In this document: piece by piece, positions 42,330-47,444 of the stretch
Layout of the letters: each line of letters starts with the position of its first letter
Position numbering within the stretch: the first letter of the stretch is position 1
NCBI GenBank assembly: GCA_018814305.1
Contig: JAHJAA010000061.1
Location: forward strand, 1-64,000
Length of the DNA: 64,000 nucleotides
From: Pseudomonadota bacterium
GTDB lineage: Bacteria > Desulfobacterota > Desulfobulbia > Desulfobulbales > JAGXFP01
Direction: 5' to 3'
The notes under the pieces: generated by a model
The model's database searches: none
What the model saw: only the letters and a program-made list of their open reading frames with translations
What the model was told of the DNA's origin: nothing
Translations under genes and position numbers: made by a program

Positions 42330-42944
42330 TTACCGATCCATCATATTACGATCACCCTGATTCCATTCCTGTCCGTTCATCATGCCGGGGCCGTACCCTT
42401 GGCGGTAGTTACCCATCATACCACGATCATATCCCTGACCATAGTCATCCATCATACCGGGGCCATGACTTCGGCCATAGGTACTCATCATACCGGGACC
42501 GTACCCTTGACCATAGGTACCCATCATACCATGACCATATCCCCAGCCATTGTGCATCCCCAGGCGATCACCGGAGCCTCTCGTGAATCCGGCTTCCTCG
42601 GCTTTCTTATCGAGGGACTCCTGGAGATCATAGATTTCACCGGTGAGGGTGGCAACACGCTTGGCGTCCGGGTTGTTCTGGCGGTTGATGGCACCGAGTT
42701 CACTGTTCTTGACCAAGAGATCCTTGCGGATGGGGCTGGTCTCATCACGATATTGCTTATAGGCCTTGGCATCCTTGTCGGAGAGATTCCGGCCCTGATA
42801 CCCTGAGTTGCCGCAGTAGCCATACCCAGTTCCACCGTTTGGACCAAAGGTATCATTCGCCGAAGCGAAGGGAACGCAGGTAAGTCCAATCATGCTAATA
42901 AGTGCTGTGCTAACAACTGTTTTGTTCAATGTCGTCTTTTTCAT
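42330..42944 (-). CDS. ZraP-like periplasmic metal-binding protein with 12-aa repeats
   Basis: A 204-aa secreted protein. The signal peptide (~1-29, ending ASAND) is followed by the zinc-resistance-associated core (LSDKDAKAYKQYRDETSPIRKDL, then a long helix ~75-120). The C-terminal ~70 residues are five tandem 12-residue units (GYGPGMMSTYGR type), rich in Met, Gly, Tyr and His. These probably bind metal such as copper or zinc. A sigma-54 promoter lies upstream, as it does for E. coli zraP. The ribosome site is AGGAGG. Confidence 0.75.
   Translation of the reverse strand: MKKTTLNKTVVSTALISMIGLTCVPFASANDTFGPNGGTGYGYCGNSGYQGRNLSDKDAKAYKQYRDETSPIRKDLLVKNSELGAINRQNNPDAKRVATLTGEIYDLQESLDKKAEEAGFTRGSGDRLGMHNGWGYGHGMMGTYGQGYGPGMMSTYGRSHGPGMMDDYGQGYDRGMMGNYRQGYGPGMMNGQEWNQGDRNMMDR
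42363..42542 (-). repeat. Five 36-bp tandem repeats inside the ZraP-like gene
   Basis: Five in-frame units of 36 bases encode a 12-residue repeat (consensus GYGPGMMxxYGQ; variants begin SHGPGMM and GYDRGMM). The repeat number could change by recombination or slippage, altering metal-binding capacity. Confidence 0.75.
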
Positions 42945-43326: not shown

Positions 43327-43429
43327 AGTGGGAGATAATAATTTTCGCCAGCCCTTGACCCTGTAGTATGGTCCAATGTTTATATTCATAATAAGGGATT
43401 CAAAGAAACCTTGGAATAAGGAGCATTCG

Positions 43430-43891
43430 ATGCATTTGACCATTGGAAAAATTGCCGACCGGGCGGGACTTGGTATCGAGACCATCCGCTTTTACGAGAA
43501 AGAAGGGTTGTTGGCCAAACCGAGACGTTCCGGCAGTAACTATCGACTCTATCCCGAAGGGGACATTTTTCGGCTCCGGTTCATCAGGAGGGCCAAGGAG
43601 CTGGGCTTTTCATTAGGGGAGATTAGGGAGCTGTTGCAGCTTCATGATGATACCCTGGCGACCAAGGGAGCCGTCAGAACCAAGGCTGAAGTCAAGATCG
43701 CAGATATTCGCGGCAGGATCAAGGACCTGTCCCGGATGCTGGCGGCACTCACGGTCCTCGTTGATGCCTGTGATGGACAAGGCCCGATTCAGGATTGTCC
43801 TATCCTGCATGCCCTGGAAGATCCGCCTTTTGATAATTCCGAACATATCCACTCAAATTCCACCACGGAGGTGAACCATGATCACCGGTAA
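43430..43891 (+). CDS. MerR family heavy-metal regulator
   Basis: A 153-aa metal-responsive activator/repressor. The N-terminal winged helix is typical (LTIGKIADRAGLGIETIRFYEKEGLL, residues 2-28), followed by YRLYPEGDIFRLRFI and a dimerisation helix. The effector part ends with VDACDGQGPIQDCPIL (~110-125), a cysteine pair in the pattern of ZntR/CadR relatives. The ATG at 43430 has an AAGGAG site. The gene overlaps the YHS-protein gene by 14 bases, pairing regulator and metal-handling protein. Confidence 0.9.
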   Translation: MHLTIGKIADRAGLGIETIRFYEKEGLLAKPRRSGSNYRLYPEGDIFRLRFIRRAKELGFSLGEIRELLQLHDDTLATKGAVRTKAEVKIADIRGRIKDLSRMLAALTVLVDACDGQGPIQDCPILHALEDPPFDNSEHIHSNSTTEVNHDHR

Positions 43892-44225
43892 TATCGTATG
43901 GCTTGTGGCAATAGGCGTTTTTATTTACTTCATGATGCGAAAGGGCGGCGGGTGTTGCGGTGGTCACGGCGGCCATGACGGACACGGCAGGCATGATCAC
44001 GGGGAACATAATCATGACCACGGCGCCACCCGGAACCTGGAGGGCGACACCCTGCGCCGTGAAGGGATAACTCCCGCGGCGACCTTCCGCGATCCGGTCT
44101 GCGGTATGACGGTTGGCGAAGACTCTCCGGTCCCGATCCGCGACCATGATGGGCGAACGTATCGGTTCTGTTCTGAAAAGTGTCATAAACTCTTTGACGT
44201 GGATCCGAACAAATATATACGCTGA
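43878..44225 (+). CDS. Membrane protein with His-rich linker and YHS domain
   Basis: A 115-aa protein. One membrane helix (~5-20), then a Cys/His-rich stretch ([10 protein letters not shown], followed by repeated [11 protein letters not shown]) and a C-terminal YHS domain (DPVCGMTV ~71 to [14 protein letters not shown]). YHS domains bind metal and often sit at the N-terminus of copper ATPases. The overlap with the MerR gene and the CopA remnant directly downstream point to copper handling. The stop TGA (44223-44225) falls just inside the ATPase remnant frame. Confidence 0.82.
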
Positions 44226-44518
44226 AGGCCGAGGGGAGAATGGTGGCCATGGAATCGGCCGGGATTACCCTGGTCAAGGGAGACCTGACCGGCATTGTCC
44301 GAGCCCGACAACTCTCCCGCGCTACCATGGCCAACATCAAGCAGAACCTCTTTTTTGCCTTTATCTACAATGCACTGGGCGTACCGGTGGCAGCCGGGGT
44401 GCTCTATCCCTTCTTCGGGATACTGCTCTCCCCGATTATCGCGGCGGCGGCCATGAGTCTCTCCTCCGTCTCCGTGGTCACTAACGCCTTGCGGCTGAGG
44501 AAGATCAGGATTCTTTAA
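44222..44518 (+). pseudogene. Remnant of a CopA-type copper P-ATPase (C-terminal end)
   Basis: Reading on from [10 protein letters not shown] at 44222, the frame continues [20 protein letters not shown] and two last membrane helices ([39 protein letters not shown]). In intact CopA, LRAEGRVVAM is followed by the GDGINDAPALA hinge and only later by [11 protein letters not shown]. The join at VAM therefore removed the hinge; upstream parts with DKTG are gone as well. It cannot be a working pump. An ATG at 44240 may still express a 92-aa fragment. Confidence 0.85.
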
Positions 44519-45010: not shown

Positions 45011-45589
45011 ATGATGAAAATCAGTCGTCTCATCACGATCATTGTTACTGTTTTGCTCCTGGTGATAATCGCTGGCTGCGATCGAAACAGCGATCTTGCC
45101 CAGGCGACCTTCGGTACTGGCAACGGTGGTGGCATTTTAGTCTCCTCGGTCGATCGCCGGGCGATGCCGAAATTTATTCTTTCCTCAGGGAAGGATAAGG
45201 CCCCGGTTGAGAGTCATACTCTCCAGGGACGGGTTCTTCTGGTGGCTTTTTTTACCCCTTGGTGCAGTTCGTGTGTCGATGAGATGGTCATGCTGCAAAA
45301 ATTCCAGCTGGATTATGACCCGTCGGACCTAGCGGTGATCGGCATGGCGGTGGTCAGTAATGCAGACGATCCCACCCTGGATCGGTACGTTGCCCGGCTT
45401 GGACTGACTTTTCCGGTGGTGGTGGCCGATGATGCGGTGAAGAAGGGGTTCGGTGGCATTGCCGTGGTCCCCACCGTTTTTCTGGTTGATCGAGCCGGTC
45501 GTATTGCCGCCCGATACTTCAACCACCTGGAGAAGGAGGCGTTGATCGCTGCTGTCCACCGGGTACTCGCTGAGTCTTCTGGGGAATAA
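45011..45589 (+). CDS. TlpA-like thioredoxin-fold lipoprotein
   Basis: A 192-aa periplasmic-side redox protein. The signal peptide has a lipobox (IIAGC, ~22). The thioredoxin fold carries WCSSC as active site (~85) after LLVAFFTP, and a cis-Pro loop (VVPTVFLVDRAGRIAARY, ~155). It may reduce cytochrome or metalloprotein disulfides. It is three bases from the histidine kinase gene, so lipoprotein, kinase and the following redoxin form one unit. Confidence 0.88.
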   Translation: MMKISRLITIIVTVLLLVIIAGCDRNSDLAQATFGTGNGGGILVSSVDRRAMPKFILSSGKDKAPVESHTLQGRVLLVAFFTPWCSSCVDEMVMLQKFQLDYDPSDLAVIGMAVVSNADDPTLDRYVARLGLTFPVVVADDAVKKGFGGIAVVPTVFLVDRAGRIAARYFNHLEKEALIAAVHRVLAESSGE

Positions 45590-45592
45590 GGT

Positions 45593-46651
45593 ATGGGTGG
45601 TTTCAAGATAAAGAAAAACTTTGGAGAGGGATTACTTGTTGCTACTCTGGTGATCGGGATCACCATCCTCCATTACCGGATTAACCATCTGGAGATCTCC
45701 AACCACATTATTTTCCGGGAATTATACTTTCTGCCGATTATCCTGGCCGGGTTCCGGGGAGGGATGGTTGGCGGACTGGCCACCTCTTTTTCAATTACCA
45801 TTCTCTATCTCCCCTACATCCTTTCCCAGCCGGAAGGTCTCTCCGGCCATAATTTCGGGAATGTCCTGCAGGTTGTTCTTTTCAATATCATCGGGATGGT
45901 GGTCGGTTGGCTGCGGGATCGGGAACAGGAGCAGCAAAAAAAGAGGATGGAGTCGGAGAATCTGGCTGCTATGGGTCAGGCTGTCTCCTGCATCGCCCAT
46001 GATATGAAGACCCCGCTCATGGCCATTGGCGGCTTTGTCCGTCAGGTCCGGCGGAAGATAACCGATGAACGCCTGGCCGAAAAACTCGATATTGCCTTTG
46101 CCCAGGTCCGGCGATTGGAGATTATGGTAGGAGATATGTTGGCCTTTGCCAGGCCATTAACCTTACAGTACCAGCAAGGGCCGATCTTGCCGCTGCTGGA
46201 CGAAATAATCACAATTACCGAGGAAAAGGCCGGTCAACGCGGGGTGATGATTAAAGCGGAGCTGGCTGAGAACCTGCCGACCCTTGCCTTTGACTCCCAT
46301 CGTTTGCACCAGGCCTTGCTGAATCTGGTCAATAATGCCGTGGAAGCTGGTCCCGTCGGCAGCGCGGTCCTGATCCACGGTCGTCGGCAGAACTCCCGGC
46401 TGGTTCTTGAGATTACCGATGCTGGAGAGGGGATCCCGGTAGAGCGTCACGGGGAAGTATTCAAGCCTTTTGTAACCTCCAAAAAGGATGGGACCGGGCT
46501 TGGCCTCCCAATTACCAAGAAGATCATTGAAGCCCACGGGGGAACGATCCTGATCCTCGCTAACCGAGCTTCAGGAACGACCTTTCGTATCACCTTGCCG
46601 TTGGCTGGTGAGGGTCGGGGTGAAACCGCTCAGTACGAGGAGACACTATGA
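45593..46651 (+). CDS. Membrane sensor histidine kinase
   Basis: A 352-aa kinase with a compact membrane sensor (about four helices, ~13-110; FRELYFLPIILAGFRGGMVGG) of the 5TM/MASE-like type. An H-box with CIAHDMKTPLMAIGG (~140) follows, then N-box NLVNNAVEAG, DAGEGIP and GTGLGLPITKK. No response regulator is adjacent. Its stop overlaps the start of the selenocysteine redoxin (ATGA), suggesting a link between thiol redox state and signalling, or simply co-expression. Confidence 0.87.
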   Translation: MGGFKIKKNFGEGLLVATLVIGITILHYRINHLEISNHIIFRELYFLPIILAGFRGGMVGGLATSFSITILYLPYILSQPEGLSGHNFGNVLQVVLFNIIGMVVGWLRDREQEQQKKRMESENLAAMGQAVSCIAHDMKTPLMAIGGFVRQVRRKITDERLAEKLDIAFAQVRRLEIMVGDMLAFARPLTLQYQQGPILPLLDEIITITEEKAGQRGVMIKAELAENLPTLAFDSHRLHQALLNLVNNAVEAGPVGSAVLIHGRRQNSRLVLEITDAGEGIPVERHGEVFKPFVTSKKDGTGLGLPITKKIIEAHGGTILILANRASGTTFRITLPLAGEGRGETAQYEETL

Positions 46652-47174
46652 ACCTGAAAAATCAACCGGCAATCCCTTTTGAACTGAAGGATGCCAAGGG
46701 TTTTTCGCACCGGCTGGCCGACTATCAAGGGGGTTGGTTGCTTATGGTTTTTCATCGCCACCTTGGTTGATTGCCCTGCCGGGCGCATCTCTCGCAGTTG
46801 CGGGAGCGACAGGTTTATTTGGCCGGCAAGAATATCAAGGTTGTGGTGGTGAGTTTTGAGGCCGGTTTTACTGCAGTTCGTTATATTGAGGATACTGGAA
46901 TTGACTGGCCGTTGCTGGTCGATGAAACGCGCGAGCTTTATCGCTCCTATGGGATGCTTCAGGCGGGGTTTTGGGACATCTGGGGTGTGCCACCTGGGAG
47001 GCCTATGCCAAAGAACTCATGCGAGGTCAATGGCCGAAAAAATTCTCGGGGGATATTCACCAGCGCGGCGGTGATGTTTTGATCGACCCGGCAGGGATTG
47101 TCCGTATCCATCCTGGGGGGGCAGGTCCGGCCGATCGACCGTTGGTCGATCGGCTCCTCTGGGAGGTTCCTTAA
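46648..47174 (+). pseudogene. AhpC/TSA-type redoxin with UGA (selenocysteine) and one frameshift
   Basis: The ATG at 46648 overlaps the kinase stop. Forty codons on, an in-frame TGA (46768-46770) lies in RHLG-U-LPCRAH. In relatives this is a FGCxxCR redox motif, so the TGA is at the active Cys and very likely encodes selenocysteine (UxxC). A SECIS-like hairpin follows. The redoxin fold continues (VVVVSFE, LVDETRELYRSYGM, FWDIWG). Near 46989 one base is missing: the frame changes, and WEAYAKELMRG ... GGDVLIDPAGIVRIHP resumes in another frame to the stop at 47174. The gene is broken in this sequence unless the deletion is an error. Confidence 0.82.
46768..46806 (+). promoter_or_regulatory. UGA codon with SECIS-like hairpin
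   Basis: Downstream of the TGA (46768-46770) a 7-bp stem forms from CTCTCGC (46789-46795) and GCGGGAG (46800-46806), with one G-U pair and loop AGUU. The loop G is 27 bases past the UGA. Bacterial SECIS elements usually have the apical loop 16-37 bases downstream with a G in its first two positions, and this one fits. SelB binding is inferred; the window shows no sel genes. Confidence 0.7.
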
Positions 47175-47195: not shown

Positions 47196-47444
47196 ATGAT
47201 GACGAATTGGATGTTCGGTGATTACGGGATGGGTTTTGGGAGCGGGATGGGGCTCTTTATGCTTTTATTCTGGTTGTTGATCGTTTTGGGAATATTCATG
47301 TTGGTGAAAGCTTTGCTGGGGGCTGGTAAGAAAGAGGATGGGCTAGGCACCCCCGAAACAGCCGAGGAGATCCTAAAAAAACGGTATGCCAGGGGAGAAA
47401 TTAAAGAGGATGAATTCCGAAAGATGCTGGATAACCTGCGTTAA
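47196..47444 (+). CDS. Small SHOCT-domain membrane protein
   Basis: An 82-aa protein. One membrane helix (~15-42) follows a Gly/Met/Phe-rich N-terminus (MFGDYGMGFGSGMG). The C-terminal SHOCT motif is clear (EEILKKRYARGEIKEDEFRKML, in two overlapping parts). Such proteins are common near copper-resistance genes and oligomerise. The ribosome site is GAAGGAG. Confidence 0.8.
   Translation: MMTNWMFGDYGMGFGSGMGLFMLLFWLLIVLGIFMLVKALLGAGKKEDGLGTPETAEEILKKRYARGEIKEDEFRKMLDNLR

Follow-up and report, generated by a model that had tools for sequence, protein, structure and literature searches.

A predicted selenocysteine codon and a covarying SECIS hairpin in a frameshifted, SelL-related redoxin gene of a Desulfobulbales-type bacterium

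Introduction

When the reading frame of a redox protein is interrupted by TGA exactly at its active site, the question is whether the codon ends the protein or is read as selenocysteine (Sec). Such a case lies in the window, the whole stretch of 64,000 nucleotides analysed here. A sequence-only reading of this DNA had described a redoxin gene at 46648-47174 as one frame, with Sec at the in-frame TGA and a SECIS-like hairpin behind it, and had expected a plain annotation to give two fragments. Codon and gene family have held up, and the Sec assignment is supported by homologues, SECIS and machinery. However, the full-length redoxin cannot be read from the assembled copy, as a frameshift at 46984-46991 had been missed, and three pieces are expected from a plain annotation (UGA plus frameshift). 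The locus is very probably a selenoprotein gene encoding a SelL-related, Prx-like UxxC redoxin of the Desulfobulbales type, with UGA codon 41 translated as Sec. Its parts are as follows.

46648..46986, + strand: N-terminal two thirds of the SelL-related redoxin, residues 1-113, in the frame of the ATG
46768..46770, + strand: in-frame TGA, predicted Sec codon 41, in the UxxC motif (HLG-U-LPC)
46789..46806, + strand: predicted bacterial SECIS hairpin, starting 18 bases after the UGA, with arms 46789-46795 (5') and 46800-46806 (3') around the apical loop AGUU (46796-46799)
46984..46991, + strand: frameshift, with one base too few for the family, where reading passes to the -1 frame
46992..47174, + strand: C-terminal third of the redoxin (TWEAY...GGDVLIDP...), in the -1 frame

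An active-site TGA kept across the family

The motif around the TGA is HRHLG-U-LPCR. In all 7 close orthologues the TGA is kept and the gene is otherwise open throughout apart from TGA codons, and the TGA stands at the active site in 36/36 genomes of the class whose match covers the site. Genome contigs of bacteria and archaea were scanned with peptide patterns that leave out the Sec position, and the matches were combined with the class loci; the resulting 108 orthologous loci come from MAGs of Desulfobacterota type, Acidobacteria, Planctomycetes and other groups. TGA occupies the active site (LG-U-LPCR) in 107 of these, and the lone exception has Cys; by motif there are 106 UxxC, one UxxU and one CxxC. 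In a phylum-wide survey with the NF040769 profile, TGA was found in 7 of 8 members over the cut-off, and distant members without TGA whose site is readable show GCxxC at the same place. Sec and Cys are thus exchanged exactly at the position of the in-frame TGA, both among the 108 loci (107 Sec, 1 Cys) and towards the distant Cys relatives. The profile match and the 106 UxxC loci also agree with the earlier suggestion of a UxxC redoxin, known in some anaerobes. The apparent near-complete use of Sec in the clade is partly by construction, because the query came from the same clade. At the level of the family, the comparison of homologues identifies the TGA at 46768-46770 as a selenocysteine codon.

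Several relatives depart from the common motif. The UxxU member of the clade (L027, G049 C1:1444836-1445333) has two in-frame TGA codons and a SelL-like motif. Four distant relatives (L184, L185, L188 and L196) carry UxxA or UxxS (HFGUMFAR-type) with different downstream hairpins; they form a Sec subfamily of their own that has no second redox Cys. Members of another Sec subfamily (L198 and L199, GFIUPFCR-type) share the same AGUU-loop hairpin sequence, GCGCAGTTGC.

Evidence for a SECIS element

In bacterial SECIS elements (bSECIS) the loop has 3-9 nt and begins 16-37 nt after the UGA, the stem has 4-16 bp, and a G lies within the first two loop positions (PMC13188914). The hairpin at 46789-46806 fits this published geometry, with a 7-bp stem, a loop of 4 nt that begins 25 nt after the UGA, and a G second in the loop. 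As in the sequence-only reading, the stem (arms 46789-46795/46800-46806) has 7 bp and the G of the loop stands at +27 relative to the UGA. The folding energy of the hairpin is unexceptional (z = -0.53; 50 of 200 shuffles fold as well), and since energy alone did not support a SECIS, covariation was needed.

Covariation and synonymous codon use were tested on 89 distinct Sec genes, with duplicates removed, and although the folding energy is ordinary, both tests show the behaviour of a SECIS. Across the loop, Gln and Leu are encoded as CAG TTG in 89/89 genes, whereas TTG is in the minority among Leu codons in the other Leu columns of the redoxin gene. The stem is paired in 95% of cells, compared with 20-68% when it is slid. 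Five of its seven pairs vary, and their pairing was reached by 0 of 2000 shuffles, which ignore sequence relatedness. At pair +21/+34, GC occurs 41 times and CG 37 times, and pair +22/+33 takes all six standard types (UG, AU, CG, GC, GU, UA). Neither ancestry nor the protein code accounts for two-sided flips of such extent. The loop motif is absent from the single Cys orthologue and from six Cys relatives. Judged by these sequence patterns, the hairpin is a real bacterial SECIS.

Selenocysteine machinery of the genome

The genome is a draft of 4.15 Mb in 92 contigs, 96.7% complete. Of the genes proposed earlier as a check, selA, selB, selC and selD are all found in it, the tRNA-Sec having the anticodon TCA (read as UCA), and the organism is thus expected to decode Sec. 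Two strong selD genes are present. One of them (L016, G000 C18:28023-28952) carries TGA in frame where its own active site lies (TCGUAAK) and is itself a selenoprotein candidate; the other, on contig C19, has Cys. The same genome (G000) also has two selB-type genes, at C10:58563-58700 (L010, L051) and C19:1970-2101 (L011, L050). The latter adjoins the only tRNA-Sec found and lies near one selD; its contig is small and also bears an HdrA-like gene. Whether C19 is a foreign member of the bin was considered and rejected, since its tetranucleotide correlation with the window (r 0.88) falls inside the spread of the window's own parts (0.86-0.96); this gives no reason to discard the contig, but does not prove that it belongs.

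Under the standard code the redoxin TGA would be an ordinary stop or a nonsense mutation, the part downstream would be a separate or dead gene, and the fragments could be annotated apart. Such a reading is hardly credible given that the TGA is kept in 107 of the 108 orthologous loci, which come from several phyla, that the SECIS covaries and that the genome has the Sec machinery.

Gene neighbourhood

The redoxin gene lies in a copper-type locus, with the following genes on the same strand.

43376..43891, + strand: MerR-family regulator
43878..44225, + strand: small membrane-anchored YHS (metal-binding) protein
44228..44518, + strand: remnant of a copper-type P1B ATPase, last ~95 residues
44687..44944, + strand: 2-TM protein, weakly DUF5676-like, found beside the ATPase in one relative (L057)
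45011..45589, + strand: TlpA/ResA-like thioredoxin-fold protein (CSSC) with a signal- or lipoprotein-like N-terminus
45593..46651, + strand: sensor histidine kinase (DUF4118, HisKA, HATPase_c)
47196..47444, + strand: small membrane protein with a SHOCT domain

The overlap with the histidine kinase and the TlpA-like thioredoxin upstream had both been pointed out before. The redoxin ATG at 46648 overlaps the stop of the kinase gene as ATGA (46648-46651), and the kinase is probably translationally coupled to the redoxin. The TlpA-like gene lies two genes upstream of the redoxin; its product could be functionally linked to it, with a putative role as partner. A SHOCT-type gene similar to the one downstream adjoins the redoxin in several relatives.

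The stretch holding the ATPase remnant (44226-44518) stands directly behind the YHS gene. In relatives such as L057, L058 and L117 a whole ATPase of 843-893 residues is found near the redoxin; the window lacks some 800 residues of it between the YHS gene and the remnant. A divergent, whole copper-type ATPase occurs elsewhere in the genome (842 aa, 60% identity to the orthologue). On the opposite strand, 42330-42944 (-) encodes a Metal_resist-like protein whose repeats are rich in Gly, Tyr and Met, as would suit a heavy-metal locus. Gene clustering around 80 redoxin orthologues gave no universal neighbour; the commonest neighbours clearly distinct from the redoxin locus were the P1B ATPase and a reductase-like cluster, each at 8 of the 80 loci.

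A second interruption in the last third of the gene

The frame that starts at 46648 fits the redoxin family only to residue ~113 (46986) and then runs to a TGA at 47080-47082. The C-terminal third is found in the -1 frame, inside an ORF at 46971-47174. Membership of NF040769 is defined by a whole-protein HMM score over the curated cut-off of 120 bits. The first piece scores 114.2 bits (profile 2-110) and the second 42.7 bits (about 43; profile 110-170), each below the cut-off; only the two frames joined by an X spacer pass it, with 169.5 bits. The gene is thus interrupted twice, by the UGA and by a frameshift of one base, and only in this copy does it fail to form one open frame once the Sec codon is set aside. 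A real recoding event and an unrelated frameshift share the gene, and the two can be taken for a single signal.

None of the full-length relatives examined shares the frameshift; all are open at the site. Deviations at conserved sites number 1/36 before the break and 1/21 after it, compared with 6% in other members. Substitutions relative to the closest orthologue, by codon position, are 24/14/61 before the break and 14/15/33 after it, so that third-position changes dominate on both sides. Decay of the C-terminal part was rejected on these grounds, as neither conserved-site deviation nor codon-position bias shows relaxation. Both halves being equally conserved, the frameshift is either very recent or a sequence error.

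There is close to an even chance that the break is a sequencing or assembly error and that the organism has an unbroken gene. An error is favoured by the equal constraint before and after the break, with the same-frame codon-position bias, by the open frame of every full-length relative examined and by the draft state of the genome in 92 contigs. However, the break lies outside any long homopolymer (no run at the site exceeds GGGG), the ATPase nearby is also truncated, and most of the long ORFs elsewhere in the window seem intact, which makes a generally error-rich assembly unlikely. These intact frames also count for a real frameshift in a locus that is decaying in this lineage, which would make the window copy a very young selenoprotein pseudogene; such an event has a probability somewhat short of even. 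It would account for two independent lesions within 3 kb, an ATPase without about its first 800 residues and a frameshifted redoxin, and would accord with the whole but divergent copper-type ATPase elsewhere in the genome, but it has to contend with the lack of relaxed constraint after the break (1/21 versus 1/36) and with third-position changes that still dominate there. Programmed -1 frameshifting that joins the halves after Sec insertion would supply the shift that is needed and fit the constraint on both; it is nevertheless very improbable, with no in-frame X-XXY-YYZ slippery heptamer seen at the site and no such shift needed by any of the relatives examined.

The closeness of the ATPase truncation to the redoxin frameshift suggests either that the locus is decaying or that the assembly is poorly resolved over this stretch. 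The full product is made only if the frameshift is a sequence error; otherwise this copy may make no functional protein. Strands 142-146 and 151-157, together with the last helix, would be lost through the frameshift. A wider proposal, that a nearly obligate Sec redoxin clade serves copper or heavy-metal handling together with the P1B ATPase, YHS and MerR proteins and that this genome has been caught losing both pump and redoxin, is speculative and rather unlikely.

Predicted fold and proposed mechanism

The fold was predicted with AlphaFold2 for the closest orthologue, using an alignment of 31 loci (pLDDT 89.6). In the model, residue 41 stands directly before helix 42-53, the redox motif U41-L-P-C44 is present at the start of this first helix, and residue 41 would take the active-site position of the thioredoxin fold. 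The best PDB match to the model is human prostamide/PGF synthase (9usa; E 3.9e-11, TM 0.78), with further matches to Bcp4, a Geobacter thioredoxin-family protein and ResA.

In the proposed mechanism, SelB carrying Sec-tRNA(UCA) would bind the hairpin 18 bases downstream of the UGA, with its AGUU loop, and deliver Sec at the UGA. The product would be a thiol(selenol)-disulfide oxidoreductase of thioredoxin/peroxiredoxin fold, with U41-xx-C44 opening the first active-site helix. By analogy with UxxC thiol-disulfide oxidoreductases, Sec41 would attack the substrate as nucleophile, Cys44 would resolve the selenenyl-sulfide, and a thioredoxin-like partner would then reduce it. The redoxin may be coupled to the sensor kinase and the TlpA-like partner in a locus for copper or heavy-metal response. 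We infer its chemistry, redox partner and copper link, as well as its predicted fold.

Relation to known selenoprotein families

The analysis confirms a Sec codon at a point where an annotation pipeline may end the gene. The covariation-based SECIS with its invariant AGUU loop is a usable search model for further members of the redoxin family, and the repeated presence of a copper ATPase nearby gives a hint to function that can be tested; the general picture of selenocysteine biology stays as it was. The redoxin family with its UxxC/UxxU Sec forms and the NCBIfam model were already known. Added here are the covariation proof of the SECIS, the use of Sec almost throughout the clade as far as homologues indicate, the copper-locus context and the frameshift. 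A literature search on the NCBIfam name of NF040769 found nothing useful.

UxxC/UxxU Sec forms have been reported as Prx-like thiol:disulfide oxidoreductases (reviewed in PMC9312934 and PMC13188914), and Prx-like UxxC proteins in PMC1088965 and PMC2398784. The present redoxin shares with these the Pfam domain PF00578 (67.8 bits) and the UxxC motif, with L027 as its one UxxU relative; equivalence to the Prx-like oxidoreductase (reference WP_010940744.1) is suggested by domain and motif. SelL, a Prx-like protein with a UxxU diselenide, belongs to the same superfamily by NCBIfam naming and likewise has Sec at the first motif position. However, the second redox residue is Sec in SelL but Cys (TGC) in the redoxin, and UxxU appears among its relatives only in L027.

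Human prostamide/PGF synthase is a CxxC protein (Prx-like 2, C44/C47 per the entry title) with Cys where the redoxin has Sec; its identity to the redoxin model is 21%, and different substrates are expected. ResA/TlpA and the Bcp/AhpE peroxiredoxins are similar in sequence and fold over the first ~100 residues, but form a separate family; the redoxin is without the peroxidatic TxxC/TxxU motif, and HRHLG-U-LPC lacks the T at -3 of a Sec peroxiredoxin (TxxU). The closest likeness is to the SelL-related redox proteins of NF040769, with the same full-length profile match once the frames are joined and the same UxxC active site, from which the present copy differs by its frameshift. The redoxin is a new member of this known selenoprotein family, not new in kind.
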